Below, one piece after another: positions 1,652-57,700 of a stretch of 64,000 bases of DNA (the stretch's first letter is position 1; the number at the start of each line of letters is the position of its first letter). The notes under the pieces are model-generated. The model ran no database searches. It was not told the origin of the DNA and saw only the letters and a program-made list of their open reading frames with translations. A program made the translations under genes and the position numbers. The DNA is taken from positions 248,001 to 312,000 of the forward strand of contig JAVTLE010000018.1 in assembly GCA_033439295.1 (NCBI GenBank). Direction: 5' to 3'. This DNA comes from Deuterostichococcus epilithicus (Eukaryota > Chlorophyta > Trebouxiophyceae > Prasiolales > Stichococcaceae).

Positions 1652-4600
1652 TCAGCAGGCCGAGTGCAGCGGCATCATCTGCAGCCCGCCGTGCTGCTGC
1701 GCCACGGCCTTCGCGTCAAGGCTGCTGTACTCGCCGCCGCCGCCGCCGCCGCTGACGTCCTGCTCCGCGGCGCCGCCGCCCTTGCCATCTCCTACTTTCA
1801 AATCTGGCGCGGGGGCATCATCAAACGCCGCCGCGGGCCGCATCGTGGAGTCCGGCGAGATGACAGGCAGCATGATGAAGGCGAACACAGCGCCGCCGGC
1901 CATCACAGCGGCCAGCACCAGCACCGCGGCGGTGTAGTCGCCGGTGGAGTGCTTCAGGGCTCCCACTAGAAACGGCCCGGCCAGGCCTGCGCGTGCAAGG
2001 ACCATACCAGATGCAATGATCAAAGGATCGGGATTGCAACTGTGAGGGCAGCTGCCTACCAAGGCGAGTCCCGTGAGGCCTGCTGGTGCAAGGTTCTGAC
2101 ATCGTGCAGTCGTCTGACACAGGCAAGGATCGAGTCTGCGAGTCCAGGCGTGCATCCAGGCTGAAGCTTGACAGTGCCTCCCCGGGGGTCAAATCAAAGG
2201 GCTCGGCAGCCAGATCTGCCGCTGCGGCATCGGGGTCCTGGATGAAAGCCCGCGACAGCAGTGACCTCAGCTAGAAGCGCGCACCTCCGAGGAGCGCGCC
2301 AAAGGCGTTGATGACCGCCCAGCCAGACGCCGCCGCGGGCCCCGACAGGTAGCTGCTGGGGTAGGCGCTCAGGATCCCACCTGGCGCCCACGCCAGCACC
2401 GTGACCAGCAGCGCGGCAAAGGCCAGCCCCGCGTGGGACCCCATGAAGGCGGCCAGCGCCACCATCGCGGCAGCGGAAAGCACGAGTGGCACCACCACGT
2501 GCAACCGACGCTCGGCTGCGGGTCAAAGGAGGACCGCACTCAGATGTGAATCCAGTGCGAGGCGCGGGCATCTTTGCTTCTGCTTCCCAACAACAAGCGC
2601 AACTCGCGCCTGCATTCTCATGGAAGCGGCAGGCCTGAGGCTGCAGACGGCAGCCTGCGCAGGCGTCCATGCACCGCCGCGTTCATGACGGCACAAGCAC
2701 ACCAAACCTCCAGACGCACGAGACGGCGGCGGGGCTGCACGCCCTGTGCGGATGGAGCTCTTCCTTCCTCACCGCAGCGCTTGGAGTGCCAGGCATTGGC
2801 GACCGTGGAAAAGGCAGCGACCGCGAAAGGCGCCGCCGTCAGCAGCGCCACCAGGACCTCGCTGGGGCCCTCGCCGGCGCCGCCAAACTCGTCGAAGTCG
2901 TCGCTGCCGTGGGGCGGCGCCGGGGGCGCGCCGCCGTGGGGGTTGGCAGCCGCGTCGGCGCGCTGCTTTTGCAGCCCCAGGATGTGGTAGATGATGAGGG
3001 GCGTGAAGTACAGCAGCGCGTACCTGCGCCAGGTACACGGACAGGAACCCGCTCGGTGCGCATGCAGCATGCAGCAGCTTTCCGTAAACCTCCTCGGCGA
3101 CGTCATCAATGCACCGCTTGCTGCGGTCTGCGCAGATCAGGCCAGGGAAACTGGCAGCCGAACATCCTGAAGTTGGATGAAGTGAGCCACCGTCTCTGGT
3201 CACCAACCTGACCAGGCATGCTGTTTGCGCGGGAGCACACTCACTTGGTGGTGGAGATGCACACGTCCAGCGAGGCCAGCGCCCACGTCTTCCAGTGCAA
3301 AATGCCTTCCCACTCCACCTCTGCCAGGCTGCCGCCCATGGCCTGCCGGGGCAGGAAACACAGGCTGTCTCGTGCCTTGGGACCACCATCAAGATCATGA
3401 GCGGCAGCTCACGAAAGCAACTTGTGGAGGCCTGCATGTGCCCTCCACCACACCTCCCATTCCATCTCCGCCAGGCTGCCGCCCACGGCCTGCACAGGGC
3501 TGGCTTCGGGGCGGTCATTGGTACTGGGGCCGGCAGTTCGCCGCTGCCCTGGTGGCCGGCAGAAGTCCTTCCACAGAATAGTGACTCAAAAAAGCGTGTT
3601 GACAAACGCTTTCTGTAATATAGAATGATATCGTATCTGCTTCACCTTGTGCGCCTCATTGCGGCGGGCCAGCCAGGCGCGCTCCGGCGGCGCCAGGAAG
3701 TTGGCGGTCGCCGGCGCGTCCGCCAGGCTGCAGCGCAGCCACAGGCCGAAGGCTATGGTGGGCAGCCCCTCCGCCAGGAACAGCCACTGCCAGCCGTCCA
3801 GGCCCAGGAAGCCGTCCATCGCCAGCAGCGCTGCCGCCAGGGGCGCGCCCACCACCTGCGGGAAAGGGGTTGTGGAGTTACTTTCAGCCTCTAGGGCCCG
3901 GCTGCAGAGTCCAGTGCTCATGAAGCTGCCCATGGCGAGCAGCGCTGCCGCCACTGAGGCGCCCACCACCTGCTGGAGTTAAAAATCTCAGTTGGACTAC
4001 GGTCCCCTTGCGCCTCCAATCTGCCTTGCGACATGTAACTGGGGCACGCTGCCAGTGGCCGGGCAGTCACGGCAGAGAAGTAGGTTTGTGCATGCAAGTG
4101 GCGCACGACGCTGATTCGCAACAACACAGGATGTGCAGGCCAAGAGCAGCTGTCAGGAGGCCGCAGCAAGCGAAACACAGCACGCTGTGCACGCTATAGC
4201 TGCTCGCACCTGGGACACTACGCTGCCTGCCTGGCAGATCGCGTAGGCGACCGCTACCTGCACCACCAGGAATGTATACATGGAGACCAGCAGCGCAGTC
4301 AGATAGTGCGAGGCCTTTACGTGGTCAAAGGGAGATCACACAGTGCAGGCTTTCCTGCAGTATCTCCTCCGACCTGCAACAGGATGTGCGACGCATGCCC
4401 TGTCTCATCGCGCCTGCCACCCACCATGCAGACATAACCCTTCATGCACTGTCATGCTGATGCTGCACACCCTGTACAACCAGGTCTTGGGGCGTCCTGC
4501 AACCTGCAATCCTGCCACTACAGAACGCACCTCCGGCGTCGTGTAAAACTGCGTCAGCATGTACCACAGCCCGGGGAAGGTGCCGGCCTCTGCGAGGCCC

Positions 4601-7968: not shown

Positions 7969-10900
7969 TTAGGCCGCGTGCTCGACCTCTGCCTCCGCCG
8001 CCGACGCCTCTGCCCGCTGCTTCGGCTTCTGCTGCCTTGGCCGCTGCTTCTGGCCCTGCTGCCGCCGCTTGCGGCTGGCGGCTTTCCCGGACCGCGCCAG
8101 CACCTCTGGCGGCTGGTCCTTCTCCCATGCGGCCACCACACCCGCCGCAATGTTCTCCTCGTCCTCCCAGCTGTCCGGGTACCGCTCCGAGTCGGCCCAC
8201 CTGCGGTGCAGGAACATTCCTGGTCCGTAATCCAGCACGCACCATTGCCGTGTGACTCTGGATTGAACAAAGCGGTTGTTCAGGAAGTCGGTGGGGGAGC
8301 CGTCTTGCGTCAGTGCTTTCCAATGACAGCTCGGTCTCGAGCTCTGCCTGGCGAGGTGCTGTTATCGGTTGCGCTGCACCAGGCGCAGGAATGGCGCAGG
8401 CTGCTTCTCAGGGCTCTGAACCGTCCTCAGGGGCGCCGCACCCGGTCACTCCTTCACTCACTGACACACAGCAACCCCCAAGCGGCACCGCACCCGACGA
8501 GGTGCTGGCGCTGGTTGCCGCACCGCGCCATGCACAGGATGGTGCCGCCTCAGCTCGCCCCCAACCCAAGCTCTTGAACCACTCCCACTCGGGGTCCGGC
8601 ATCAGGCCGCCGCACCTGACGAGGTACTGGCGCTGGTCGCCGCGCTGCACCATGCGCAGGATGGAGGCCGCCTGCGCATACTCCAGGCCCGCCTCAAAGT
8701 CGGCGCGCACGTCCTCCGCCACATACACCTCGTTCACCTGTGCATGCCATCGGAGGGTGTGCGTGTTATGTGGGTCGTGCCGTTGCCAACGTCTTGGCAT
8801 CACTGTTTCCGACGTCAGTCGCCACGGCTTCGGCCGCGTCCCAGCCTCTGGCTTCGGAAGGAGCTTTCGGGCGCCGGCTGACTCGCAGCAGCTTTGAGGG
8901 CGCCCGGCAGCGGGGCCTGCGGCGGAGGAGCCTGCTGGGTCAGGGGTGGTGAGCGACGGTGCGAGCAGCCGCCGCGCAGCCCCTCCAGCACCTGCCGTTC
9001 AGCAGGGCAACGAGATGATAGCAAGGGTGCCGCTTGAGCAGCAAGAGCAGCGTTCCACACCCAGGAGAGTCGGTCAAGCCGCCGCGGCCGGTAGCATTCG
9101 CCAGGCTGAGATCTGCAGCAGCACAGATCTAGCAACGACCCACACCCTGGAGTCGGGCGACTCGTCAGGCGTCCGCACCGGCACTCGGGCACACGCCTCT
9201 GCGGAACGCGACAACGACGAGAGGCGCACCCAGGAGTCGGGGGAGTCGTCCGGCCACTGCACCAGGTAGTCCTTCGTGCCGTCCTCGTTCTTGCGCGAGT
9301 CCAGCAGCTGCAGCGGCTCCAACTCGTCGTACAGGGTGCCTGCGCCCGGCAGCAGGGTCGTGACCGTGTGCAGATGACGACTGTTTGGCGCCGCTTCCGT
9401 GTCGACTGTGTGGCCTGCGTGAGTCTAGCGGCTGCAGCGGCTCCGGCTCGTTGTACAGGGTTCCTTCCGACGGGTCGGGGTTACAAGGTTGCGCGGTTAA
9501 CGCAGTATGTGGACGTAGTGGTTGCTCTGAGTCATGAATGGTAGTCTATGAACGAGACATGCCAGCGCCGGCTGGGTGCCTTGAGGGCAGCACGGACTGT
9601 CCCTTCCATTACACAAAGTGCTCCTGGCACAGGCTCGGGACGTGCAGGGAGGCTGCCGCCTTTGCCCCGGGACTGCGGCTGGCCATTACCGACCAGAGGC
9701 GGCCAATAACGGCCAGCCAACCGCAAGGGCAGCGACCAAGCTGTGCTGCCTGTGTTCCTTGTCCAGCCAGAACACGCTCGGACTGCCCTCAGGGGGGGTG
9801 CAGCTCCCACCTGTCAGGATTTCGGAGCAGCTGTCCAGCGCGAAGCGGCGCTGCGCCGCGGCAGGGTCGGCAGGGATCTGGCCCTTGAGCCCGTCCACCA
9901 GCTCCAGCACCGAGCGCGACTGCAAGTCCCGCACCTGGGGGGTGTCAGGCAGTGACGTGGGTTAATGGCATGGTTCAACTCCTGGTTTGAGGGTGGACCC
10001 CTCGAATTTGCTGCCCCCGCAGTTCAGGTCAGGGCTGCCATATGCGTCCACGCCAGCTGCACAGCCTTCCATCTATCGACGGACTTCTAGATGACAGCAG
10101 CCTGGAGGATGCAAGGAGCGAGGTCGTTTTGGTTGCACCCGGGTCGACGCTGTAGTCTCACAGGCAGAAACATGCGAGGTGCCGTACCTCTGGGTCCGCG
10201 CCGTGGTGCAGCAGCAGCTCCACCACCGGCACATGCAGGTAGCCCGCCGCCATGTGCAGCGGCGTGTAGCCTGCAGGAAAGGCATTTGCAAGATTTGACA
10301 GTCAGCAGAACGTGTTCGCCAGTTGCACAATGGCGTTTGGCTTGCAACAGGTCGAGACTGCAAGACTTTGGTGGTGCAATAAGACCGTGCGGCAGGGTTG
10401 TCGCAAACGGCAGGCGGCTTTGCGGCTGCTGCAGAGGGCTTGGCTCAGCTGCAGCAGTCATCTGGTGCATGCACCACGCTCGAGCTGCATGGCGGCAGAG
10501 CGCTGCGCTCTCGGCATTCTCACCGTCCTTGTCTCGGAGGTCGACCTCCGCGCCAGCCTCGCACAGGATGCGGGTGATCCGCACGTTGCCAGTCGCCGCA
10601 GCAAAGTGCAGCGCGCTGAGCGGCAACACCAGGCGCATTACTGACCAGTAGAGAAGGTCAAGACAAAACACCAGTCGAGCACGATGTTGCTGTCACGAGA
10701 GATATCAGAGGGTGTGCTGCGCCAAACAGCCATTGGACATCTGCCGGCGCTGTTGCAGGGGCTCACCTGCGGCGGTTTTCATCGACACTCTGCGACAGAA
10801 CACGCTTGCCGCCGCCAAGCATCAATCGGATGGCCTCCTCGTCGCCCTGCAGCAAGGTTTGCGCTGCTGACCACCGGCCACGTGTCATGGACCCAGCAGA

Positions 10901-11784: not shown

Positions 11785-12344
11785 GTGCGCATACAAGCCG
11801 TAGAAGGATGAAACAAAATCAGGCTGAGAATACCAAGTACCGTGAATGCGAGAAGCGTGGGATCGTCTTCAAACCGCTGTGCACGAGGCAAGGATGTAAG
11901 CTTGGAGGCTGCTCAAGGTCTCAGCCGCCACTCAGTTCATAATAGACGGAGGTAAATCTCTGCTTAGAGTCTGGCAAAGCTCACGACACTGTTGCGGCGC
12001 ATATTGCAGTGCATGCGCCTGTGTGCAAAAGATTTTAGGATCACCTCGTGCATAAGGGTGGCGAACGAAACGTGCAAGCACTCGCGGTCTCCCGCACTTT
12101 CGCAAACGCCCGCCCTGCAGCGCGTGTTTAGTCGAAATATATCTGCCGTCGGCCTCCACTGATCCACTTGCAAGTGGCACAACAGACGGTCAATAGGGCA
12201 TACCAAGCAACAAGGTGACTGCGCACACGTTGGTTTCGCAGCTGGCCAAGCCTTCGGTACCTTTCTCGGAAGACTGAAAATCGCAGCGACAGAAAGAACA
12301 GCACCCCACTCTTCTGATGCACTGAGGTGCTCTGCGATTGCGAC
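11785..12344. promoter_or_regulatory. Divergent promoter region between cpSRP43 and SPF45
   Basis: A 560-bp stretch separates the two start codons, which point away from each other, so it must hold both promoters or one shared bidirectional promoter. I see no convincing TATA box. Several short frames here have no recognisable product. Confidence 0.5.
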
Positions 12345-15183
12345 ATGCTCGGCGGACTGTACGGCGACCTCCCGGATGCGAGGGACAGCGGCGATGGCGC
12401 CGCCAAGCCCGGCGCGCAGGCCAACAGCAGCGGCTGGGGCGCGCCGCAGCTGCGCATGCCCGCCAAGCGGCCCGCGCCGGCTATGCCACCGTCCGTGCTC
12501 CGGTCAGGTGGGTGAAAGCAGTTCTCCGATGCCATGGGGACACGAATGGACATAGCCCCCATGCCTGCGGCGTGTCCGGTCCATGTTTCTCGCACAAGCG
12601 CATCGCAACGTGGTTGCCCACCACGGTGAGCGGCCGTGTGACATGCAGGCCGGGGGCGCGGCGGCCAGGCGGCGCGGCCTGACACCATTGGCGGCGGCCG
12701 CGGCGGNGCNGGCGCTGCCGTGGCGGGACGGGAGCCAGCCGCAGCGTCCTTCCTGTCTCCCAGCGGCGCGCCGCTGCAGAACGAGTACGACCCTGCGCGC
12801 CCCAACGACTACGCTGCGATCCGGCGGCGTCGGGAGGAGGCGCGGAAGGAGGCCGAGGCTGAGGCTGATCGGCAGGAGGCGATGCGGCGGGCAGAGGCGG
12901 CGCTGCAGGCCGCGCGGCCCAATGAGGCGAGAGACGGGGGGCTGGACGCGCTGGGCGGTCTGGGCGGCGGCGGGGACCTCGGCGCCGCTGGCGGCCTGCC
13001 GACTGCAGCTGCGTCCGGCGAGGAGGCCTACCTCCGGCGCGGCAGGTGCCATGCTCTCTTGCTCCAGCCGCCATGCGACAGCCCCTGCAACGTTGCACCC
13101 TTGTGGCGCTGGCACCTGGCCCGGGAGGATGTGCACAGATGTGTGCCGCAGTGCACCCCGCTCGACTGCGGGGCTTGTGCTGGAATGTATTTGCGGTTGG
13201 CAAGGCGCTGCCATGGCCACGCGGGGTGTCTTCTGCGCACCACAACCGCACTCTTTGGAATACTCCTCTCGAGGAGGCATGACTGGTTGCCGAAACCTCG
13301 CAGCAAGCACCTAGGTAGCCTCAAGTAGGCATGTGCTTCCGCTGCTCCTGCGTTGCACAGCGGATGACGCTCCCGTGCCGCAGGTTGGGCACGGCCGGCG
13401 GCGGCGCGGCGCAGCAGGATGAGGGCAGCGGCGGCGATGCACGCGGCATGGGCCTGGCGGCAAAGATGATGGAAAAGATGGGCTGGCGCGGTGGCGGCCT
13501 CGGCAGGGAGCAGCAGGTGTGCTGCGCGGTGGAGCCGCGCATGGCCGAGTGGGACAAGGGACTTGCTGGTCTGGCTTCGCCTGCAGGTGCACAGCTGCGG
13601 AGGCAGCTCATGGCGGCTGTGCTGTCTGCCGACAAGCGGAGCTGGAGCGGCTGCGCCACCGGCCTTTTCACTTCTGCTGCGGGCCACTGCGCGGCCATCT
13701 GAAGGGGCTGAACATGGCTGTGGACCGCAGCTTTCGTATCAATGGTGCCTGGCGCTGGCGCCCCCCACCAGGCGCTGCCTGCACCACTGTTAGGTGACGG
13801 CGCCCTGCTCTGCCTGACTGGTCCTGTGCTCGCTGCAGGGCATGGCGACGCCGCTGGTCGCGCAGAAGCGGGACGGGCGCAGTGGCATCATCGCGCACGC
13901 CGAGGAGCAGCGGCCAAAGGTGGGTGCCCGCCCTGTTGATGCAGTACCTGTGGCGGCCGCCGCCAGGCTGCAGCCGCGAGGCGGCCTGGTATCAATCTCA
14001 CACCATCATGTCGACACAATTCTTTCCAGCAATGCTGCGGTCACAGGTCAGCGGCAAGCCCAGGTGCAGGCCAGACGGCACTGGGACCTGAGCCTGCACC
14101 CTCGCTGCCGCAGGGCACCGTGATACAGGGGAAGCCGTCCAAAGTTGTCCTGCTGCGCAACATGGTGCGCTGCTCGCCTTCTAATCGATGTACAAACCCT
14201 TTTGCCCTCGAACTCGCCCAGTAAATAGACTGTCCCCCTGGATTCCATCCGGATGCATCGAGGTTGGGTTGCTTTTCAGCATTCAGTGGATTGTGGCAGC
14301 ATATCATGGTTTGTGGGCCCAGCAGCTTGTCGGCCCATGGCACAAAGCACATGGGCCTGTGGGAGGTGGACGTCGCCTGGACACCCTGCAAAAGTTGACT
14401 GCCCGTGGGGTCGTTGCACTGTGTCTGGACCCTTGCACAGGTGGGACTGGGGAGGTGGACGCGATGCCGGAAGAATAGATGGGCACACAGAAGTGCAGCG
14501 AAAAACACTGCAGAGAGCGTGATCCAGCACAACAGGGCATTATCGAATTCTTTGTGGCACCGGTTTCATCGCGCAGGTGGGCCCTGGGCAGGTGGACTCG
14601 ACGCTGGAGGACGAGGTCGGGACGGAGTGCACCGCCAAGTACGGCGCCGTGACTGGCGTCGTTATTTTCGAGGTCACGCAGCCCGGCTTCCCCGTCGACC
14701 AGGCCGTCCGCATCTTTGTGGCTTTCGAGCGGCAGGAGGCCGCCATCAAGGTGGATCTAGGGTTTAGGGTTTGGTCGCCAGGGGCCCTCGGCCGCTGGCC
14801 CTGTACCCCGCTCCTGCCCGCTGCGGCCTTTTCCTGTGCGTCACAGAGATGGCCCACCAGGCACATGCACCACACGGCGCACGCGAGGGGGCGCTGGCGG
14901 CGCCGCTTCTGCCGCCGGCGCCGGCTGCGGCCATCCTCCTGATCGCCGCGACCCTGGCCGTGCTGGGGCTCCAGCGGGCGGACGGCAGCCTGCAGCATCG
15001 GAGGGGCAAGCCGCCATCCTGTGGGCGTGAGCCAGTGGGTTGACATGCCTACCGCTTTGCACGCAGGCGGCTGTCGACCTGGGTGGCCGCTTCTTTGGCG
15101 GACGGCAAGTGCGGGCCACATTTTACTCCGAGGAGCGCTTTCAGGCCAGCGACTTTGTGCCGGACCCGGCCAGGGACGACTGA
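12345..15183 (+). CDS. DRT111: Splicing factor SPF45 (DRT111/RBM17)
   Basis: Nuclear alternative-splicing factor; in plants DRT111/SFPS binds the 3' splice-site machinery and affects light and ABA responses. Seven exons join in phase: 12345-12507, 12649-13045, 13384-13516, 13839-13919, 14114-14164, 14577-14750, 15067-15183 (371 residues, near the plant length). The start MLGGLYGDLP is the conserved SPF45 N-terminus. EYDPARPNDY precedes a charged helix (residues about 95-125), a G-patch follows (GMGLAAKMMEKMGWRGGGLG), and the C-terminus is a UHM-type RRM (SKVVLLRNM, VGPGQVD, AVRIFVAFE, GGRFFGGRQV). Two ambiguous bases fall at codon third positions and do not change the protein. Intron 5 holds copies of the start of exon 6. 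Confidence 0.96.
12707..12710. other. Two ambiguous bases (N)
   Basis: Positions 12707 and 12710 are N. In the SPF45 frame they are the third bases of GGN (Gly) and GCN (Ala), so the translation is unaffected. They lie in a GC-rich GGC/GCG run and probably reflect low sequencing quality there. Confidence 0.95.
14351..14480 (+). repeat. Copies of the start of SPF45 exon 6 in intron 5
   Basis: The acceptor and start of exon 6 (gcgcaggtgggccctgggca, exon begins at 14577) recur as gcacaggtgggactggggag with the exon-like part at 14441, 136 bp upstream, and a weaker third copy lies near 14351. The 136-bp shift is not a multiple of three. Confidence 0.75.
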
Positions 15184-15334
15184 TTCCTTTCGGCACCAGC
15201 TGCGCAACTATCAGCAGTTGCTTGGGGTTGCGGTGTGTTGCCAAGCTACCGTAGTGTGAAACCAATCCCCAGAGCGCTGCGCGGATGGGGCAGCTTTTCC
15301 GCCGTAGAATCTTATCCTAACGTGGTCGAATTGC

Positions 15335-15758: not shown

Positions 15759-16269
15759 TAGGGTTGACAGCCAACCGGTAACCGGGGTTGGTCCTAACCG
15801 GTAACCGGGGTTACCAACCGGTAATCGGGGCCGGAAATCCGGTTACCTCCCGGTTACCAGCCGTTCCCCATTCTAACTTATGTGGATTCTAGCTACCGCC
15901 AGGGGGTATGGCGGCGGCTCGGGGGAGTGGCGCAAGGAGATGGGCTTTCTGTGCCACTACACAGCGGCAACACTTCCCGAAACAATTTTCTTTATCCCCC
16001 AAACCAGCTGCACCTTGTTGTCCATCTGGGGGTCCATTACTGTCAGGTTCACGCCATTCGATGTCGAATTGCAAGAGAAATTTGGAAATCATGCAGTTTT
16101 GTCTCAGAGGCTCGAAAATCAGACAGTAATGATCAGCGAGGTGAGACAAGTCCATTTCCGATGAGTTTGGGGAAAAAGGGCGAGGTAACCGGCAAAAACC
16201 GGTTAGTAACCGTGGTAACCGTAACCGGTAACCGTAACCGGTCCCAACATCCGGTTACTGCCAACCCTA
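15759..16269 (+). mobile_element. hAT-type non-autonomous transposon, family A copy 1
   Basis: A 511-bp element with terminal inverted repeats TAGGGTTG...CAACCCTA, flanked by the exact 8-bp duplication GGTGCAAG (15751-15758 and 16270-16277). Both ends are packed with GGTTACCGG-type subterminal repeats in both orientations, as is usual for transposase-binding regions of hAT elements. The body (about 15880-16165) matches a second copy at 33696-34223 closely. No transposase is encoded; an open frame in the body is not a recognisable protein. Confidence 0.92.
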
Positions 16270-16277
16270 GGTGCAAG

Positions 16278-17566
16278 TCCCGAGAGCCAAAGCCACCATC
16301 CCCCGTGACACTTCCGCCCCCTCATTGAATTTGTGATATTGTATACATTTATTGTATACATTTGTATCTTGTCTACTGCTACTTGTGATAACAGGCGAGG
16401 GGTACAGCGAAGTGCTGGACTCAGCAAGGCAATATACTATGCTCTTAAAGACCCCTGTAAAATGCACTAGCGTTTATTTGACTGTCATGCTCACACGCAT
16501 TCCGTTGTTTGGCATCATGCCTGGTTGTGAACGGGGTTCCTTTGGTTCCATGCCGTCACGGGATTTCAGCCGCGGCAGCCGTCTGCATGAGACTGATAGC
16601 TTTGCGCCAGGGCTTGACGCCTGCCTGCCAAGTAGCTACCGAGAACTCGGGTGACGGAATTCCGGATCACAATTCACAAGAACAACAAATGATTCTCTCC
16701 AATGTACCTACGCATAGTTCACGCGCGGTCTTACCATTCCCTGACCAGTTAAGTATTTGAGTAATGGATATCTTACTACTCCATTTGTGGTGCCTGTCTC
16801 TCAACAACATCTCACAAAGTGCTGATGTGAACCGTCTTCGCAACAAACTTATTGCATGTCCACCCAGCATCGCCCCACCGACGCAAACCTTCCGAAACGG
16901 CCATCGTTTACTGGTTCCCAGGAAAACCACGTCGGTACATCACGATGGACTTGCAAACAGCGATTTGAATTGCTTCCTTGACCTTTTATCGGCATATCCA
17001 ATAGGTATATTGACACGCGCCACCTTTCCGTTCGTCCGTTTCAGTTCTTCCGACCACGCACGCACAGGGACTCTATGCCAGCCGTGACGTCGCGGCCTTG
17101 ACTCCAGCGACGCGGCATGAAACCAACCCAGTTTGCAAGAGCTCGAATGCGAGTCAGCTTGGAGTGCCTTTAAATGTGAGAACCGCGCCACCAGGGAGGC
17201 TGGTAGGTGTTTAACACGCTACCTACGTAAGCTCACTTCACACAGCGGCACGCAATCGCGTATGAGCCTTGCGCCGCTGTAAGTCAGCGATGTATGTCCT
17301 CGAGGAATTTGGCAGCGTTGCACTCGGTGAAGGACGGGCCGGGCGCCTGGTGCTAACAAGGTAGCTTGCGTCATATGCAAACCAAGTTCCGGATCTTGCC
17401 AGGTGACATGCTGTTGCCATACTACACCCTATGCAACACCCAGTTCAGGCACTAGCCAGTTGCGAGACGCAAAGCACGTGGATATTTGCGAATCGTTAGC
17501 ATTCGGAATGTCAATTTACAAACGCAGCGCCGAACGCCAGAACGCAGGTCCTAGAGTTACTAAGAG
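16278..17566. other. Intergenic stretch without a supported gene
   Basis: No gene recognised. 16308-16365 holds the short repeat also seen at 1212-1280. Around 16940-16975 a block containing atggacttgcaaacagc also occurs in the right arm of the foldback element near 31097, so a decayed relative may lie here. A weak ~95-bp similarity links 17178-17275 to 35927-36020. Confidence 0.5.
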
Positions 17567-17984
17567 CAGGTTTGCACCGCACAACGCACGCGTGCGAACG
17601 CGCACGCGTTCTGCACACGTGCGCACGGCCGCACGGCTGTGAGCACTGCCGTGCGCACGTTGTCAGACGCTGTCAGACAGTGATGTAATCCAGCTAGACA
17701 ACAGCTGCCGGCATGCTACTGCGGCTGCACACGAGACGCAACTGCATATTGCGGCCGTTTGACAAGTTGCATACATCGTCTCAACGCATAAGATATATGT
17801 ACAGTGAGGTTGTATGCATTGTTCAGCCTGTTATGGCCCAGCGCAGCCTGTTTCTTCATTCTCCTGGGGGATTAACACAGGCAGCCGTGCGAAAGTGCCG
17901 TTCCCTGCCGTGCGCGGTGCGCACGCGGTGCGCACGCGTGCGCACGGCCGCACGTCAGTGCAAGTGACGTGCGGTGCAACCCTG
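17567..17984 (+). mobile_element. hAT-type non-autonomous transposon, family B copy 1
   Basis: A 418-bp element with ends CAGGTTTGCACCGCAC and GTGCGGTGCAACCCTG (imperfect inverted repeats) and the exact 8-bp target-site duplication ACTAAGAG (17559-17566 and 17985-17992). Subterminal regions are dense in GTGCGCAC/GCACGCGTGC steps. It encodes no transposase. A second copy lies at 35203-35621. Confidence 0.93.
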
Positions 17985-18149
17985 ACTAAGAGAGATGTAC
18001 TAAGGAAAGTACTACAAAAGAATGTACTACAGAGGGATGGCGTACCTCTGTAATACGGAGGTCCGTACTAACTTGGTACTTAGGACAGGATGCTTCGTCT
18101 CAGAAGGAAGGTTTTAGGTGTTCACTATACTTGTCAGGGTTTGCGAGTT

Positions 18150-33695: not shown

Positions 33696-34223
33696 TAGGG
33701 TTGGTAGCCAACCGGTAACCGGGGTTGGTCCTAACCGGGTAACCGATGGGGTTACCAACCAGTAACCGGGGCCGGAAATCCGGTTACCTCCCGGTTACCA
33801 GCCGTTCCCCATTCTAACTTATGTGGATTTTAGCTACCGCCAGGGGGTATGGCGGCGGCTCGGGGGAGTGGCGCAGGGAGATGGGCTTTCTGTGCCACTA
33901 CACAGCGGGAACACTTCCCGAAACAATTTTCTTCACCCCCCAAACGGTTACACTCCACCAGCTGCACCTTGTTGTCCATCTGGGGGTCCATTACTGTCAG
34001 GTCCACGCCATTCGATGTCGAATTGCAAGAGAAATTTGGCATCATGCAGTTTTGTCTCAGAGGCTCGAAAACCAGACAGTAATGATCAGCGAGGTGAAAC
34101 AAGTCCATTTCCGATGAGTTTGGGCAAAAAGGGCGAGGTAACCGGCAGAAACCGGTTAGTAACCGTGGTAACCGTAACCGGTAACCGTAACCGGTCCCAA
34201 CATCCGGTTACTGCCCAACCCTA
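33696..34223 (+). mobile_element. hAT-type non-autonomous transposon, family A copy 2
   Basis: A 528-bp element with the same TAGGGTTG...CAACCCTA ends as 15759-16269 and the exact 8-bp duplication AGCCAGTC (33688-33695 and 34224-34231). The body is nearly identical to copy 1 apart from small insertions and deletions; the near identity suggests fairly recent activity. Subterminal GGTTACCGG repeats are present at both ends. Confidence 0.95.
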
Positions 34224-35194: not shown

Positions 35195-35202
35195 CTATGA
35201 GG

Positions 35203-35621
35203 CAGGTTTGCACCGCACAACGCACGCGTGCGAACGCGCACGCGTTCCGCACGCGTGCGCACGGCCGCACGTCTGTGAGCACTGCCGTGCGCACGTTGTC
35301 AGACGCTGTCAGACAGTGATGTAATCTAGCTAGACAACAGCTGCCGGCATGCTACTGCGGCTGCAAATGAGACGCAATTGCACATCGCCGCCGTGTAACA
35401 TGTTGCATACATCATCTCAACGCATAACATGTATGTACAGTGAGGTTGTATGCATTGTTCAGCCTGTCATGGCCCAGCGCAGCCTGTTCCTTCATTCCCC
35501 TGGGGGATTAACATCAGCAGCCGTGCGAAAGTGCCGTTCCCTGCCGTGCGCGGTGCGCACGCGGTGCGCACGCGTGCGCACGGCCACACGTCAGTGCAAA
35601 GTGACGTGCGGTGCAACCCTG
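35203..35621 (+). mobile_element. hAT-type non-autonomous transposon, family B copy 2
   Basis: A 419-bp element closely matching 17567-17984, with ends CAGGTTTGCACCGCAC and GTGCGGTGCAACCCTG and the exact 8-bp duplication CTATGAGG (35195-35202 and 35622-35629). The two copies differ at few positions and keep the same length to one base. Confidence 0.95.
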
Positions 35622-36039
35622 CTATGAGGTGATTCAGCCCGGAAATTGGCATCTCAGATGATGTTTTGCGCCAGAGTTTGCACTGCCAAGTTGCCAAATC
35701 AGTGGCGAGCAATCGCGCGGGTTACCAAACCCAGTCTCCAACGGTCAGCAGCCTCAGCCGATTGACCTCTCAACAGGGTGCTTGAAGCCCTTTCAGCAAA
35801 CTTTGTGCCTGCGAGGCCCTTTTAATAACCAGCTTGAAGTAAGAGAAGCTTTTAAAGCCCTGACAACCCTGCTATCAGCCAGCTAAGATGCGCTAAGAAG
35901 ATGAAAGTGTGAATCCCTAGAAATCGGGAACTGTGCCACCAGGAGCGCTGATTGGTAGTCAACTTGCAAGCCAATTTCACTTAGCGCAGCGGCATTCGAG
36001 TGTGTGCCTTCGTTGCGCCGAGCACCCCGTGGCTGCAGA

Positions 36040-37265: not shown

Positions 37266-37269
37266 ATTT

Positions 37270-37945: not shown

Positions 37946-40900
37946 TCAGGCCAATCCCAGTTCTTGCAGCATCTTCATCATGTTCCTGCCGACGTCGGGC
38001 GTCTTCACCTTCTTCATGCGCCTGCGCCAGCAGCCGGGCAGCGAATTCGTCTCAAAACCCGCATGCAGGCTTTCCAGCGACTTGCAGCCCCAACAGGGTT
38101 GGTAGGTACGTCCAAGCAGGGTCAGCGATGGCCTCTACGCCCTTCCTCAGGCAGGCTGAGCTCAGCTGCAGAGCCGCCAGGGCACATTGGGCTCTGCAGC
38201 CAGCTGCGGCCGCAGACCGGCAGCATCGTCCTGAGCTGGCGAGCTGGGGCCCCCCAGCGCACGGGCATCAGGACTTTTCAGCATTTGTCGTCGAACAACA
38301 CGACAACACAACATGCCACGAGTGGTAAGCGCGCCTGTCCGCATCCTGCATGATGCCGGCAACCGCAGTGTGCAGCTCTGCCAGCTTGCGCTTGGCGGCG
38401 GCGCCGAATTTGCCCTCCGCCTCCGCTGCCGCCTACGCGGAGGCGCGGATGGCAACCCTGTTCATTGGTCATGATAGCTGCAAATCAAACGAACTTGAGC
38501 TCCCACCTTGCCCTCCGCCTCCGCCTCCGCCTCCGCCTCCGCCGCCTGCTTGCGCGCATCAGTCCTTAGCCAGTAACGCTGGAACAAACAGCCACATCTC
38601 GTGGGGCCAGATTGGTTCTTTTCAGCATGCTGTGCTACCAGCGGACAGTCTTGAATCTTCTGCCTGCTGCTGAACGCCGCCTCTATATGCTCAGCAGGTG
38701 GGTGCGGGGTGCGGCATCGGATGCGTTGGGCACCTCCGGCACCAAGATGGTGGCCGACCCGCCCGCAAGCCGAGGCTGTCGGCTGGGCGGCTGGGCGGGA
38801 GGGGAGGGGGGCTGCGGCAGCCGCACCTTTGCGATGCGGGCAGTGTCCTCGGCATGGCGCGCCTCATAGCGCTGGCTCAGCGCCTCCAGCGCCGTGCGGT
38901 ACTGCGCCGTCAGCGCCGCCGCCTGTTCCACCGTTGCCGCTTGCTCCTGCGCAGAGTGACAGCATCGAAGTGATGAACGGCAGATGCCCTTGCGCGGCGC
39001 TGCATGTGGCCAGCGGACTGGTTGCGTGGTGGTTGACGCAACCAAGGGCCGCGCTGCCGAAGCACTGCCCACTGTTCTGCGAGCGGTGTTCATGCGGCCT
39101 GGTGCGCTGTCACGGCGCATTCCTGCTCCCTGCGCAGCAACTCACATGACGTGGAAGGCTGAGGATCAACAGCCACAATGTTGCGTCGCTGTCCAGCAAG
39201 AGTCCTGCAGAACTGCGTTCCTGCTGTCCATCTGCTCCCTCCACTTCTTCCTGCAGCACCTCTGTTGCGTCCCAGCCACACCTGCTCCAGGGCACAATCG
39301 CGGTGCTATCAGTCTCCACCGCACGCTCTTTGCAGCGTTCCGGCTGCACCTGCTCAGGCTCGATGTGCAGCGCATTTAGCGGGGCGCGGCACTGCAAGCA
39401 CACCACCGGCGTTCCAATCACTTCAGTTTGCAAATTCCACAGCCTTGAGCGACAAATTCGCCGCACCTGCTCCAGCTCGTCGTGCAGCGCGCTGAGGTGT
39501 GCAGCAGCGGCGGCCTGCAGCTTCTGGATGTCGCCCTCGGCCCTGCCCACCGCCGCGCCTGCTGTCGCCGCCGCCTCCTGCTCCAGGGGGGCCATCAGCC
39601 TGATGCCATCAGGGGCTGTAAAACAGCTCCTGCTCCAGCTGGGTCTGACAGATGCAGGTGGCGATGCAGCCCGGTCGGCCGCAGGGAGCGGCACACCCAG
39701 CTGTGTGCGCTCGCGATGCAGCGCGCCGGCCGCACCGTGCAGAGACATCATGCCTGCCCTGGCGCCGTCTCAGAGCTGCATCGAATGCTGTGGCTGGGGC
39801 TCCCATGGGTGAGCACATCAGGCGGCGCCTGCTGTTTCGTTCGAGTCGCCGGCCACAGTGGGCACCCCACCTTGATGATTGCGGCGCGCCGGGCGTGGGC
39901 CTTGCGCTCGTTGGAGGCCTTCATGCACGTGAGCGCCTCCTGCATTGCCGCCATCGCCTCGCTGTTGTTGCCCTCGCCGTCGCTGCGCCAGTCAGAGGAG
40001 TCTTCGTGCTCATCGGTGGTGCTTCTCATGATGTTGACATGGATGCATGTTGACCCATGTTCGATCGTCATTGCACACTCGATTGGGACATCAGACGCCC
40101 ACAGCCCCAGCTACGCTGCAGCCACCGCCTGGCTACAGCAGCCCTGCCCCACCTCTGCGCCCGTGCCTGGCAAACATGACTGAATAGCGCAGGGCATCAG
40201 TCAGCACCTGCCATCTCGCCGCCGTAGTCTCTGGGCTGGCTGCTGACCCAGGGAGCCGAGTTGGCGCACCCAGCCACAGAGACTTTTGAGAGATTCGCGT
40301 CCACAGTGCGCACGTCCCCACCTGTCCTGGGAGGTGCCGTGAGAGGCGGGCGAGCCGCGCATCTGCATTGCCAGGCTCTGCATCAGCGCCGCCGCGCCTG
40401 CGTCCCCGCCTGCAGCCGACATCCATGCTCAGAAAACATGATCCGAATCACAGGCGTGATCTTCAGCTTCAGGCAGCTGGGTTTGCAGGAGGTCGCAGCA
40501 CAGGCATCACAGCCGCTGGATCGTGGACAGCGAGCAGGCGCATCGCTCAGCAATGCACGATGAGTGCGGCAGCCGCCCGAGTAACATTCTCTGTCAAGAC
40601 GAGCAGAGCAGCAGCTGCACATCCGAAGCAGCAGAGCAGATCCGCTCAACTCATGACATCAGGTTGCCGGACAGAGCAGCTGGAAACGAACAAGATGATG
40701 AACAAGAATGCCAGTCACCATCATCTTCGTCGCTGGAGTCGTCTGCCGACTGTGGCAGGGCCTTGGCGGCGCGCTTTGCCCGCTGCCGCTCAGCGGCCAG
40801 CCTGGCTGCTGCCGCAGCAGGCTTGCCTGCAGCATCGTCAAATAGGTGAAGTCAAGTTTGTCACGGAATCCAGGCAGGCAGATGCGGATTCCTTGCTGCC

Positions 40901-46900: not shown

Positions 46901-49900
46901 GCCGGCGGCGTCGCAGGCCGGGTCGCTCTTTGCCCCACGCCGCCCCAGCGACGGCGATGCCGGTGACTGCGTCTGGTCCGACGCCTGCATCGTAATGCTC
47001 ACAGCAACGTGTGTGAACATCGTCGTGCGAGATCTGGATGATGGAAATTGTGATCTGCACGATATCCTCGCTGGCAGCGTCGGGATTGCTCTTCTTCTGT
47101 GGCCCTGCAGATGCAAAATTGGTACCTGAAACAGGAGGCCCAATAGCTGCACGTCTGCAGCCGTGGCACGCCTGCTGCAAGCACGATTGAAAGCATGCGC
47201 TTGCCCAGCAACATCGCAGACTCGAGCGCACTTGCCGCTGTTGCCAGCTTGTGGCCAATGCGGCTGGTCTGTCCTTTCTGTCGGGTGCACAACGCGTCTG
47301 GTCAGCCAGCATCATGCACTTCACCAAATGTCCATGAGCACTGCGAGTGCCCTCAGTCATTCATATCAGCGAAAACGTGCTTCCGTTTGCTCGTGCACGA
47401 GGCTCCTTGGCGGCCTAGTCGTTGGGGCGGGGACCAAGTGTTCCGTCATTCACAAGCTCCTGTCCAGGGTTGTTGAAGCACTCACCGATTCCTCTGCGGC
47501 CTCGCGGGTGAGGCGGGCGCCGCGCTCCGCGGCAGCGACCTCCGCCTGGTAGCTTGCAAGGCGCTCCGCCTGCTCGCGGCACCGCTCCGACGTTGCAGCG
47601 TGACCGGCAGCCTCGTTGTTGCCGGCATCGTCGTCGCCGTCTGCCTGCTTGCATAGCGCATATAGTGTGAATGACAGATTCAAAATTCGATCCGCCTGGC
47701 AGCTCACCCGGCGCACTAGCTGCTCTCGGCGCCGCTCTGGCGGCAAGGCGTCGCCACCGCCGGCGGCAGTGGCGACGGCGCCGTCTGCCTACTTGTAGAC
47801 GAGAAGCAGCAGGAGCTGCTTGGAATAGCTGGATCGATTCTGCCTGCTAATGGCTGGTTGGGGACGCCGCCTGCTTGCAGCGCCGCTTTGAGAGTTGCAG
47901 CGCCGCCGGCGTTGGCACCGTCCTTCTGACTACGAACAGCTAGATGACGGGTAGTGGCTATGTCGACACAGGCAAAGCAAGCTTAACGCCGATCGACCTG
48001 GTCGCTGCCACCGCATATTGCGGGGCGTAAATCTGGTCAGCAGCCCAATGCGCATGCTCTTGGCATTCTCTGCTGGCACCACGACACCCACGCTGGACAG
48101 TGACGATTGACAGATCTGTTTGTATGCAGACCGGTAGAGCCTGAGTTTGCTTTTAGAGCAGTGGAGGCCACACCTGCGGAGGCAAGTTCACTTCGCCGTC
48201 ATCCCCACGCTCGTTGCCGCGTGCAGGGCTGCTGACGGCAACTGAGTCGTGGCCACCAACCGCGCTGCGGCCGCCAGGCAGGGCCACTCCGTTGGCTGCG
48301 GGTGCCGCCGCCGTGCGCGGTGCTGGCCTGCTGGCGCCAGCCACTGGCTCTGCCGCCTGGGCACAGACTCACCAAAGATCACGTGAGGGCACTGAGGTAC
48401 ACCATGCACTTTGGTGAGGCACCATTGCCCAGCTGTCCTGCGTTGCCCCTCCTCCACTGCAGCAGTTTCGTTATCCACAGCGCCCGCTGCCGACAGCAAA
48501 TGATGGCCATGCATAGAGGTTCATTATGCAGGTTTGATTGAGCAATGGAAGAGATTGTAAACACGTGTGCACCATCCTGCCGGAGGGGCCGGGGCCGGTG
48601 GAGGGGTTGCCGCCGGTGCTGCGCCGGAAGCTGAGGCGCCCGAGGCGGGGGCCGCCGCTGGAAGGCGGCTTGGCCAGCGGCAGCCGCTGGTGCAGCGGGC
48701 TCACCCTGCGCACCGACCAGTGTACTCCAGTACTCATGCGTGTCCGGTGCAGGCTCACGCTCAGGAGGTCGTTTGGCTGGATGGTGGCGCCTCGCCGCCT
48801 GGCCAGCAGTCGCTGGTGCAATGGGCTCACCCTGCGCAGAAGTGACGTGAGGAGCAGAAGTGTTGTCCGACCTGTTGCCACGCTCCGTGCCTGGCGACCC
48901 GAAGTGCTGGCTGCACGAATCTTTGCAGCAGACGGGGCGGTTGAAAACGAGAAAGGCCCGAGGGCGCTCACGTAGACATCTTGGGGCGGCGGCCACTGGT
49001 CGGATGCGGGGCAGGGGTGATCTCCTGCGGCTGCGGGGACGGCGCCGTGGGCGGCGGAGGGTTCTGAGCGTTCGCCACCAGAATGCCCACCTGTGATTTA
49101 GGAGCAATTGCTGTCAAATCAGGAAAGCTTTGCCGAGCCGCCTGGCAAGGCTGTGTGCTGCAGTGCCTGCACCTGCGAAAGCTGCTCATACCCGAGCAGC
49201 CGTCCTGGCTGTGCTTGTCAAGGGCGACATCGAAAACAAACAGCAGCGTGGGCCCTCGCCTGGCATGCCGCTGAAAGCGGCGGTGCGAGCGCACTGCGAG
49301 ACATGCAGAGACGTCGGGATGGTTGAGGCGCACCTGCCGTACCGAGCTAAGGACCTGTGCAAATGTGTCCTGGTCAAACTTGAATGTCACCTCAAGCGGC
49401 CTGCAGCGTCAGCATAGGGTTGTATGGTGAGTCAGCCATGGATGTTTCTGCAGCTGCCTCAGTCAATGCTGCCGCCGGCAGGTGTCAGCATCTCTTACAG
49501 ATCAACGACATGTAGTGCCAAAGCAGTGAAGTTCTGCTCCCCGGATCGTGGGTTTGTGCCCGTGACAAGGTGTGGACTCGCGGATGTGTCCCCGCAGAAC
49601 AAGAGGATCCACCCAGGCAGGGTCAGCGCACCAGCCGATGCTGGCGCGCAGGGCCTTGGACAGTGCGGTCGCATGCCCCGCCGGCAGCCTGAAGCGCAGC
49701 AACGGCATGGTGCCAGCGGCAAGCGCCTCGGCGGTGTCCTTGGGCAGCAGGCACTCTGCATGCGCAGCAACAGGCAGATGCAGGTCAATAGCCGTTGATC
49801 AGCAAAAACAGCAATCTGCAAAGGCTTGCAGCTTTGAAAGCAGAGAGGCTGCACAATGTGCAGTGAGTGGGTGATGGTTGGTAAGCGTGCCAGCAAGCTC

Positions 49901-53582: not shown

Positions 53583-54512
53583 GGCAACCCGTCCAGGCTG
53601 CAGCTAAAGCTGTGAGCCTGCCCAGTATGCTGCTCGCGCCGGGCCCCGCGCGTTGTAGAAGATGAAATGCGCTCCGCAATCGTAGTCGCGGCAGGCCGCT
53701 GGCAAGTCTGTCCGGTCGCTGCGAAGGTCGCTGTGCGAGCAGGGGGATCTCGGCGCCCTTTATTCCGCCATACAATGCTGCAGCGCTGCGACCGGCCGAG
53801 CGTCGCAATGGCGTCACGACACCTGTGTAAGGCTTGCTGCTGACACTCGCACAATTTTTCTGCTGCTCCTCACGAAGGAAAGTCGTACCTACATGCAGTT
53901 TAACGCGCAGCACGGCAGATTACGTCAACAGCAAGTCACAAAGAGGAGGAGTGGCCTACCTCATCAAATAGGACGACTGCATCGGACTGCTTTCAGTGAG
54001 ATGTGTTGCATGCAGAGGACGCAAGGTGCTCTGCTCTAAAACGGCCTACTGTACAAGCTGTGGGCAACTGCAAAACCGCTATGGCGGCAGACGCGCTTCA
54101 CCCGCCCGCCGCTGGTCAACCAAAAAGAGACAGTCTGTCTGTGGTTCAAATTCCAACTGTTCCACTCAAGACGCTCTCTCAAAATTCCCACTCGCATGTG
54201 CGAGTGGCGGCGAACGGGTCTTGAGTCGAGTGCCAGGCCGGAGGCCGTGCAGGGGTGTCAAATTGATTGCGGGCGCACGGCAGTATTTGAGTAGGGGAAC
54301 AGCAGATCCAGCAAACGCAGCTGGCCTGCCGCATGCTCGTGTTTGCCTACATCATTGTCAGTGGCCGCACACAGAAGCTGCGGCCAGCCAGCGACGACGT
54401 CCACGCCCTTGCCAGGCGGCGTGCCGCTCGCAGCCGGTCAGCATGACGCTGTCTCGGTGGCCACTCCAGTGATCGTTGGCAGGCCTCCAGGCCCTGCCTG
54501 ACGCCCAGCGGC
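53583..54512. other. Intergenic region upstream of the SYCP2-like gene
   Basis: Lies between the 3' end of the TMEM184-like gene and the start of the SYCP2-like gene, both on the minus strand. No gene or clear regulatory motif recognised; it should contain the SYCP2-like promoter. Confidence 0.45.
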
Positions 54513-54763
54513 TCACACAGAGTTTGAGCCGGCCTGCGAGGATGTGTACGGCAGCAGCGCCGCATCGTACCCAGCCTCGTCATCAAAGCCGGCCTGCAAG
54601 GGGGGTTCACAGAGCAAATCAGTACTGATGCCGCTTTCCCATGTTGCACAGCAGATGTGGGGCAGAGAGATCCGAGCCCTCGAATTGCGCCGCACTGAAC
54701 CAAGCCGCACAACCGATTGCTGCTGTGCTGCATGTGACGAGACTCGGCGACCGAGACGTGCCC

Positions 54764-57700
54764 TCACGCCCTGCAGTCACCTGCAGCACCGTGAAGGGAT
54801 GGGACCGTGCCGGGCTGCAGAGCCGCCACATTGCAGGTGCGCAGAACTCGCCCAGGCTGGTGGAAGAGGCTATGCTCGTGCACGGTGCCCCCCCAGACGC
54901 AGCGCGCCATACTGCAGACAACCGAAGGGCGACTCGCCTGGGGCCGCCGGCCGCCGCTAGCGGGGCTGAAGTAGCGCAGCAGGCTCATGGGCCCGGCCAC
55001 CACATTGGCGGAGGTGCGCTTGGCCGTCCGCCACGACGAGGTCGTCGCCTGTGCGGCAGCACCGACAAACATGTGGGGTGTGATGACGGAGGCAGGCACG
55101 CTCGTGAGGAAGGCGGAGCACCGGGCAGGTCACCACAGAAGGTGGCACGTGGGCATGCAGATGCCGCCGCGCTGCCAGCGCAGCCGCTTGGCGGCCCAGC
55201 AGCCAGCATGCGCCTGCAAAGCCGGCCCCAAGCCATGCAGGCGTTGCGCGCCGGCGTCTAAGCCACCGCTTTGCCGGCTCCTCTGAGGTACCGGCTCCAC
55301 TAAGATGCATTGAACATCCACTCGAACCTGCCCCTCCGACTGTCCATCTGTGCCGACTTCCGCAGTCTGACGCCAGGGACTGCGCGGCCCAGCTTTGGAC
55401 TTGATGTTCCCTGCTGACAGAGGGGCTGGAGCGCGCACATGGTGCAGGTTGTCGGTGGTGCGCTGCACGGTGTCGTCCACGACGCCTTGCACATCGTCCA
55501 CCACGTCTGTTACGTCGAACAGCTTCTTCAGGTTGCGCACCTGCGCCGCGGCAATGGGAGAGAAGGGGCATGTGAATCACATCTACTGATCACTCTTGCA
55601 CGGGTGGCTAGTAACCGTTCACGTGCTGATGAGGGCTCGGAACAATCAGAGGCCCAGCCAGTCAATTCTTTTGCAGATGTGTGCAAAACTCCGTGGCGGC
55701 ATATTGCAGGCTGCTTGCAGCATCAATGTGCGAATCCCGGCCAGAACAGCTCAGACTCTCGCACCATGCTGTGCAGTGGGCGCAGCTGAGAATGCCATTG
55801 AGAGGGGCACAGCCTCAAGAGCGCAACTCCAACAGTCTCTGGAAGGGTTTCTCCTGCGAGGCCGACTGCGAATGTCAAACTGCGCACCAGGCCGTGCGGT
55901 GGGTGCAGGGGATCGGTGTAATCGCTGGGCGGGAAGGCGTACGCATGTGCCAGTGCCGCCACAAACATCTCGATGCAGATGAGGAATTCCTGCGCACGGC
56001 GGGCCAGCACAGCGGTCAGAAGCCTGTCAGAGGGCGCTACGCGACGGCTGCTCAAACCGCAGCGCGACATTCGCACTTTTGAATGTAGGTATGCGGAGGA
56101 CTCGGATCAACATTGGCAGCCACATCGAGGTGGAGGTACGAATAGAAGGTGCCATGTGCTGGAAACAGGTTGCACGAAGCCGCACCTGCAGACCGGCGAC
56201 CACGTCATCGGCGTCGTATGTCGTCCACGACTCGTTGGCCCTGATGATGCCCACCGCCTGCGCAACAGGGTTTTGATCGACTCGACTCCGATCTACGGTT
56301 TGGACGCGCAGGACAACAGCGCGGCATGTAGGGGTGGCCTGGTTGCACCAGGTGCGTGGTCGCTTGTCACCATTTATGTGCGCGCGCCCGTGTGACAGCA
56401 GCCTCACTTCGTGAGGAAATCAGATGTGCAGTCCAGCAGAAAACTCGACGGCTGTGCGGCGCAGGGCCGCGGTGCTCCGCTGCCAAGGCTTTCCTCCTGC
56501 GCGCGGCTGACCTCCAACTGACAAGGCGGCGTGCGCCTGCCACGGTCGCAGGGTACAAGGGTTTGCAGCCCACCTGCAGGATGGCGATGCCGATGCCCTG
56601 CCAGTAGGTGAAGAAGATGACGCCCTTGATGCACAGGAACTTGGCCAGCGGCCGGATGGGCGCCAGCTCCGTCTTGCACGCCTGCGCGCGGCAGGGGGGT
56701 TTGAGGGGTTTCCTTTTGGGTGAGCGTTCAGCAGCATTGCGAGACGCCTTGTCGCTCGCACGAGGGCCAGCGACGCCCCACGGAACAGGCGCTGCGCGGA
56801 CCGGCGCCTCGTGCGTGGCACACGCCGCTGTTCCGAAAACGCCTGGGAGCCCCAGATGCCTGTCCTGTGCGCCGCATCCAACCACTGGTGCACACGCCTG
56901 CTGCCGCCCTGTCGCGCTCTCATTGAAGCGTTGCCACCTCACAGGAATGCTGCTGTGCGAGCTCCCAGCACCGTCTGACGCACATGGTTCTGAGCAGCAT
57001 CGGTCCGTCGCCCGCAGATTCCAGGCTGCCTCGGCCGTGACCCAAACATCTCCGCAGGCCAGACCCACCTGGTACATGAGGACGAGGCAGTAGAGCGCCC
57101 ACATCTGGCTTGTGGCATTGATGAAGGAGACATAGGTGTACAGGCTCGCAGGCCCCAGGCTGCCGTCGTCATAGGTGCCCAGCAGCATTGCGATGACGGT
57201 CACCACCGTCATCAGGGGCCGCAAGATGACGTAATTGAGCACGCCCTGCGCATTGAGAGTGTTGGCAATCTCCGTTTCGGCGCTTGCCGTCAGCACGGCG
57301 ATGGCGGCCGCCGCAGTCGTCAGCGGCCGCAGGATGACATAGCTCGGCATGCCGCGCGCGCGCAACTGGCAGTGTCAGCCCCAATACGAGCAGCAGGTCT
57401 GACGGCGTGCGAGCAGCACACACCGCACCCCAGCGTGAGCCACATGCCCCTTTCAGTTCAGACAAGGACAGCCTGCTTGCATCAGTGGCGACCCTTCTTG
57501 CACTGCGAGATGCTCCCCAGAGCTCCGGGCAAAAGCCAAAGTGCACAAACGACCTCCAGAGGAGGCGGGCTCATCTGCGAGGGCAAGGCGAGCGAGCGCA
57601 CACCTTCTTGCACTGCCAGAAGAACTCCTCGCCCATGGGCCACACGCGCAGCACGTACTGCACGCCCCACTGGTGCCCCAGGTCCGCCTTGGTGCTGAAG

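Follow-up and report, generated by a model that had tools for sequence, protein, structure and literature searches.

An intron in the RdRp gene of potato provides the closest described precedent for the structures reported here: According to the accessible part of Ma et al. 2016 (PMC4974935), it was gained when a segment extending across an intron-exon boundary, with the 3' splice site inside it, was duplicated in tandem. The same text also mentions an 83-bp duplication inside an intron and recounts the AGGT tandem duplication model of intron creation, citing Rogers 1989 and Hellsten 2011. Here, we analyzed a 64,000-nucleotide stretch of the green alga Deuterostichococcus epilithicus (the window; positions 248001-312000 of contig 16 in an assembly of 46.8 Mb and 21 contigs) together with stretches from other contigs, and found that introns carry direct copies of the edge of the adjacent exon, splice site included. 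This copying of exon edges into introns is real, it recurs in all three large stretches, and it concerns about one intron in ten. As in potato, the duplicated segment crosses the intron-exon boundary. The potato gene is one recent case in which the whole unit can be aligned, intron half included, and in which a new intron arises (PMC4974935, accessible part), whereas the algal cases number dozens, their intron half is mostly unrecognizable, and it is an existing intron that becomes longer. The kind of event is already known from this single boundary-spanning case (PMC4974935); within the literature searched, the scale, the limitation to the exon edge and the missing intron half are new. Among the papers listed by our searches of the open-licence literature, none reported the pattern in algae.

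With the AGGT model, which Gao and Lynch (2009) are said to have treated as well, the algal copies share the origin of new splice sites from local direct duplication. In the model, duplication of an exonic segment provides both intron ends and the new intron is as long as the shift, i. e. the distance between source and copy, whereas the algal intron pre-exists and one edge is copied. The algal data differ from this: Copy-bearing introns have a median length of 415 nt at a median shift of 124, and the sequence after donor-side copies is unlike the next exon. Repair-mediated duplication in primates (2009; PMC2671141, accessible part) similarly copies short pieces of nearby DNA, and some of these contain splice sites and partial exons; exonic donors are few (of 824, 4 are partial exon/intron and 278 lie in introns), the median is 147 bp, at least one copy is inverted, and that part of the paper mentions no limit to exon edges. 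The small local duplications of Schimmel et al. 2021 (PMC8355091) are also comparable; they arise at DNA breaks by fill-in and are plain tandem duplications, for which the accessible text mentions no link to splice sites. Finally, introners resemble the algal copies as a genome-wide source of intron sequence, but they are one element copied into many genes (PMC9860276, accessible part), whereas each algal copy stems from its own gene and the spacers between copy and source have no family in common.

We scanned the window, C1:500001-700000 and C9:500001-550000 (in total 314 kb from three contigs, out of 46.8 Mb; C1 and C9 coordinates are contig positions), and additionally read C13:500001-520000 and twenty stretches of 0.8 kb each. 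Introns were called by a two-strand hidden Markov model gene finder that had been trained on this sequence itself, and every exon boundary is a prediction. The 314 kb contain 581 predicted introns with a median length of 259 nt and the consensus CAG/GTGCGC at the donor and YTGCAG/G at the acceptor (slashes mark the splice sites). A first, sequence-only reading of the window had proposed to compare introns with their flanking exons; a gapped test of this kind detected, at 63 of the 1162 intron ends, a direct copy of the exon edge next to it; pairing each end with a single mismatched intron drawn at random gave 1 case, and reverse-complementing the introns gave 0. At scores of at least 20, 52 real, no mismatched and no inverted cases remain, and the ungapped version of the test gave 56 real cases vs 2 and 2 in the controls. 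Both acceptor-side and donor-side copies occur, as that reading had stated (32 and 31, respectively). The copies are distributed over 59 of the 581 introns (window 6/95, C1 47/395, C9 6/91), and if both exons must be at least 50 nt long, 442 introns qualify, of which 52 carry copies at a total of 55 ends. Some recognized cases stand outside the 63, such as 3909-3977 in the window and an array at C1:598691. The extra sample added 6 matches in 70 predicted introns, all from the 0.8-kb stretches and none from the 20 kb of C13. Gene starts and ends, used for comparison, gave three weak matches among 69 (scores 18.0-19.2) and none at 20 or above, vs 52/1162 for splice ends. In one intron, at C1:682352-682870, there is an exon-edge copy on the donor side (shift 120) and another on the acceptor side (shift 133).

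The excess is also visible in plain self-comparison: The window has 19 ungapped direct matches at shifts of 25-400 vs 0, 0 and 1 in three dinucleotide shuffles, C1 has 125 vs 0, 0 and 1, and C9 has 81 vs 0, 0 and 0. These raw counts include low-complexity and overlapping pairs, and filtering reduced them from 225 to 109, of which 53 are exon/intron, 22 intron/intron, 24 exon/exon, 9 non-genic and 1 exon/non-genic. A shift of 80-139 is found in 35 of the 53 exon/intron pairs vs 4 of the 22 intron/intron pairs.

In the window, the sequence-only reading had claimed at least nine exon-edge copies in five genes. We find ten clear intronic copies of exon edges in five gene regions, with shifts of 84-147 bp plus a second copy at 271, and three further candidates that are weak or doubtful:

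3455..3503, minus strand: acceptor-side copy in the MFS gene; source exon start 3308-3355, shift 147, gapped score 31.8; partly called exon
3909..3977, minus strand: acceptor-side copy in the MFS gene; source exon start 3796-3863, shift 114, gapped score 40.8
8488..8551, minus strand: donor-side copy 1 in the cpSRP43-like gene; source exon end 8615-8675, shift 122, identity 0.86
8347..8404, minus strand: donor-side copy 2 in the cpSRP43-like gene; source also exon end 8615-8675, shift 271, gapped score 20.6
9143..9179, minus strand: donor-side copy in the cpSRP43-like gene; source exon end 9227-9263, shift 84
9058-9089: possible extra copy of exon end 9227-9263 in the cpSRP43-like gene; weak, score 11.3
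9416..9465, minus strand: acceptor-side copy in the cpSRP43-like gene; source exon start 9292-9341, shift 124
14435..14498, plus strand: acceptor-side copy in the G-patch (SPF45-like) gene; source exon start at 14577, shift 136, identity 0.77
39343..39373, minus strand: donor-side copy in the large gene region ("SYCP2-like"); source exon end 39460-39490, shift 117; partly called exon
47691..47742, minus strand: doubtful; pairs with 47541-47592 at shift 150, each arm being for the most part predicted exon
48791..48838, minus strand: acceptor-side copy in the large gene region ("SYCP2-like"); source exon start at 48705, shift 126
55751..55784, minus strand: weak donor-side copy; shift 124, exon part 21 nt, score 17.8
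57291..57359, minus strand: acceptor-side copy in the TMEM184-like gene; source exon start 57183-57251, shift 108; copy and exon merged by the gene finder

Two points count against some of these cases: The trained gene finder treated all or part of the copies at 3455, 39343 and 57291 as exon, and the complexity filter removed the MFS copy at 3909, so that these four depend on the alignment itself. As a warning, gene finders can mistake exon-edge copies for extra exons.

The quartiles for the copies are 35, 48 and 58 nt for the exon part, 1, 6 and 8.5 nt for the intron part, and 101, 124 and 146 for the shift; on the intron side, identity reaches background about 6-12 nt from the splice site (about +6 at donors, -6 to -12 at acceptors). 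In the S19e ribosomal protein gene (C1:535503-535968), an ungapped exon-edge copy is 93% identical to its source, and in a CDC45-like gene (C1:630757-631348; exon below the Pfam cut-off) 98%, and in both cases the neighboring sequence is unrelated. Runs of at least three consecutive copies occur, and at C1:697206, where three copies form an array, the similarity between the older units includes the spacer. The divergence of the exon part is narrow (mean 0.184, corrected SD 0.04), and mismatches within copies are unclustered.

The copies drift without visible coding constraint. In 56 copies, the mismatch at codon positions 1, 2 and 3 is 0.145, 0.125 and 0.175, there are 3 stops in 575 codons, and the ratio of replacement to silent differences is 147:77 vs about 71:25 under random single changes, a slight silent excess that fits the exon's own evolution. 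GT is kept in 16/26 copies and AG in 17/27, with about 67% expected by our own arithmetic for neutral drift at 18% divergence, and the shift ignores the reading frame (24, 21 and 18 by remainder). The median donor score is 2.4 in copies vs 5.7 at real sites, and the median acceptor score -0.1 vs 5.6. Thus, the proposal of the sequence-only reading that the copies are a source of new introns or alternative splice sites finds no support.

Its proposal that they could be a source of longer introns, in contrast, is supported. To our knowledge, little has been established on how introns lengthen without transposons. Among our predicted introns, those with a copy have a median length of 415 nt vs 249 nt for the others, and the copy-bearing share over rising length classes is 2/93, 2/111, 2/127, 11/110, 19/58, 20/47 and 3/35; a recognizable exon-edge copy is present in 39 of the 105 introns of 350-600 nt vs 6 of the 331 under 280 nt. 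If events are assumed to be independent of intron length, length minus shift fits copy-free introns of at least 150 nt (Kolmogorov-Smirnov P 0.27), whereas length minus the copy alone does not (P 3e-7). Once the shift is subtracted, copy-bearing introns are distributed in length like ordinary ones, which means that introns have gained units of about 80-150 bp. One local process may thus account for much of the variation in intron length, and it may be roughly datable from sequence.

The sequence-only reading had interpreted the copies as local tandem duplications spanning the exon-intron boundary. Their local position, direct orientation and inclusion of the splice site agree with this, whereas the intron half does not: The spacer is homologous to the far flank in 5 of 48 pairs vs 36.4-42.4 expected under plain tandem duplication. 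The upper value uses an intron rate factor of 1.46 obtained from paralogs (own arithmetic) and the lower one a factor of 1.7, with shrinkage of ages; no simulated set had fewer than 26 pairs with a recognizable intron half, and the expectation from each pair's own divergence without shrinkage is 31.9. Even among pairs with an identity of at least 0.85, the intron half is recognizable in 1 of 13 vs 12.6 expected. The intron half is in tandem register at C1:519412 and 629099, and about 30 nt off register at 579390. Fast intron turnover as a cause was ruled out with one pair of tandem paralogs (C1:653-665 kb), the introns of which are still alignable at 0.73 identity as compared to 0.90 for the exons. 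None of the six gaps of at least 18 in this pair was clearly copied from flanking sequence, and a search for paralogs of two copy-bearing genes that might show an empty site found no usable close paralog. Intron-intron duplicates, which tandem duplication at random positions should produce too, are rare at the size of the exon-edge shifts. They are present in 16/581 introns, eight of them with shifts of 80-160: Five share the intron with an exon-edge copy, C1:598691 is by eye an exon-edge array, and the remaining two are one minisatellite and one independent case (C1:549879).

The flanks of the copies carry a further signal. A composition model that separates real 3' intron ends from mid-intron sequence (held-out AUC, area under the curve, 0.715) finds the sequence preceding acceptor-side copies end-like (AUC 0.68 vs mid-intron, P 0.0013, n=28; vs real ends P 0.45), and the acceptor-side spacer is end-like as well (AUC 0.84, n=24). 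Since both acceptor-side flanks resemble intron ends, the data point to a duplicated splice-site region rather than to an insertion in mid-intron. At donors, the model separates less well (AUC 0.61), with P 0.00014 for the spacer (n=24).

We tentatively favor the idea that old boundary-spanning duplications, the exon half of which has been refreshed from the exon, lengthened introns in steps of about 80-150 bp. An ancient duplication across the boundary would have comprised about 50 nt of exon and about 70 nt of intron end, and both intron halves would afterwards have diverged past recognition. The exon half would have stayed alike, with the conserved exon as a constant template by which the intronic copy may be rewritten in short patches, either by gene conversion or by template switching between direct repeats about 120 bp apart. 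The outer, real splice site would remain in use, and the inner copied site would drift. What we see directly are the copies, their excess over the controls within the sampled stretches, their drift, the length added to predicted introns and the end-like acceptor flanks. The similarity ends at about +6 at donors and -6 to -12 at acceptors, the points at which constraint on the source is expected to stop, and the narrow divergence with its unclustered mismatches fits a balance of short patches. The two register-keeping cases C1:519412 and 629099, the near-register case 579390 and the array at C1:697206 are further points in favor of refreshed duplications.

Several points weigh against this explanation. 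Conversion tracts were looked for in the copies and none were seen, and a divergence below 5% is found in only 2 of the 63 pairs, whereas resetting of whole copies predicts mostly near-identical pairs. Homogenization should initially keep intron halves and intron-intron duplicates alike as well, so that this explanation has to postulate a threshold. The narrow age range is matched equally well by a burst of insertions in the past, and the sequence past donor-side copies did not differ clearly from mid-intron sequence in what is a weak test (P 0.11, n=28). We rank refreshed boundary duplication above break repair with filler, capture of proximal DNA and plain tandem duplication, while giving it less than an even chance. 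The wider proposal, that splice-site-bounded duplication adds units of about 80-150 bp genome-wide, yields many of the 350-600 nt introns and leaves pseudo-copies that the exon keeps rewriting, is a more doubtful one; if exons do keep rewriting their copies, each intron would keep an ongoing record of its exons.

The strongest competitor, possible if rather doubtful, is the repair of DNA breaks with filler: If a break were staggered, so that one of its ends lay at the splice site and the other about 50 nt into the exon, fill-in would double the exon edge around a new spacer; factors bound to the splicing machinery or perhaps to R-loops would determine that the DNA breaks there. Tandem duplication by fill-in is documented for breaks (PMC8355091, accessible part), and such repair accounts for the gain of the full shift, for spacers that are mostly unrelated to the intron, and for copies that are in direct orientation only and mostly at exon edges. 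However, the source of the filler was not found: When three intron regions and three spacers (one case gave both) were compared with the whole genome, the best candidates scored comprised the query itself and one local match. A template for the spacer, nearby or elsewhere, was rejected as well: Matches at P <=0.02 were seen in 6/41 cases in direct and 1/41 in inverted orientation, and two of the six direct matches are in tandem register, one is about 30 nt off, and three lie in introns with further repeats. The spacers have no common family (a score of at least 12 in 1 spacer pair vs 4 control-intron pairs, of 1176), no common motif was found at their inner junction, and short repeats show no clear excess (2/57 spacers and 4/57 far flanks vs 2.8% of 778 control windows). 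Moreover, an acceptor-side spacer made of filler would have to provide 3' intron signals at once, both flanks resemble intron ends, and the restriction to the splice site is ad hoc.

Telomeric filler was rejected as a general source: A flanking repeat with a score of at least 13 is present at 3 of 20 interstitial telomeric sites vs 25 of 400 random intronic positions. Two young spacers contain telomere-like runs, and of the three repeat-flanked telomeric sites one (L046) is an exon-edge copy according to our reading of the alignments. Retrocopying of spliced mRNA was also rejected, as identity to the next or previous exon is at the background of 0.25-0.30 past 6 nt.

Capture of proximal DNA, by which an exon edge of about 55 nt would be copied into an intronic break without any tandem duplication, is unlikely. 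Repair-mediated duplication that includes splice sites is known in primates (PMC2671141, accessible part), and spacer and remaining intron would simply be old intron. Yet the gain in length should then equal the copy alone, which is the misfit described above (P 3e-7, if events ignore intron length), pieces of intron should be copied equally often and are rare at 80-160 bp, and the mid-intron composition expected beside the copy is not seen at acceptors. A variant of repair capture with long filler may be compatible with the data.

Even less probable is plain tandem duplication of the boundary followed by neutral decay, with exon-edge pairs merely easier to recognize because the exon is conserved. 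It accounts for the direct orientation, for copies at both intron ends, for the added length and for the intron-end-like flanks, and a minority of the pairs are of this type; as a general explanation it is refuted if the predicted exon ends hold, since the intron half is kept in far too few pairs even with shrinkage of ages and intron turnover in the paralogs is too slow. A function of the copies as alternative exons or splice sites, which their splice-site-like edges and the gene models that took some of them as exons might suggest, is very improbable in view of the near-even mismatch over codon positions, the replacement to silent ratio, splice dinucleotides that are lost about as quickly as the remaining sequence, the indifference of the shift to frame and the low splice-site scores.

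The gene names given by the sequence-only reading were largely borne out by Pfam, which detected MFS_1 in the MFS gene, Ank and Chromo in the cpSRP43-like gene, G-patch in the SPF45-like gene and Solute_trans_a, which we take to stand for TMEM184, in the TMEM184-like gene; the submitted part of the "SYCP2-like" protein from the large gene region matched no family. The gene finder fused the cpSRP43-like with the MFS gene and the TMEM184-like with the SYCP2-like gene, and it performs poorly in the central island of the window, where 4 introns are predicted. The idea of the sequence-only reading that the process may act unevenly along the genome, because three glycosyltransferase genes of this island lack copies, would have to be judged from these 4 introns at an overall rate of one copy-bearing intron in ten. 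GC instead of GT is present at 68 of the 581 predicted donors, which is unusually high if real and may be inflated. The telomeric CCCTAAA runs at contig ends, the GC content of 59.5-61.9% in the stretches read and the cpSRP43-like protein are consistent with a green alga.

The window also contains a low-GC island at 16-38 kb (GC 0.49-0.56 in 2-kb steps vs 0.58-0.68 elsewhere). Two pairs of direct repeats, 15759-16269 / 33696-34223 and 17566-17992 / 35202-35628, sit at its edges or inside it; they are about 430-530 bp long, about 94% identical and about 17.6-17.9 kb apart, and the island with these repeats may be a large element that was inserted or duplicated. Lone interstitial CCCTAAACCCTAAA sites recur along chromosome arms (e. 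g. L027-L046), and 18 of the 20 that we read fall in predicted introns; CCCTAAACCCTAAA has 619 matches in the genome, many of them at contig ends among the matches listed, and the reversed control has 0. A minisatellite with a period of 153 bp occupies C1 ~652960-653720 (L017) within a predicted intron of 2.3 kb. Finally, C9:537800-549800 (L025-L026) is a cluster of repeats in both orientations, many of them 93-98% identical, that is possibly a nest of mobile elements.

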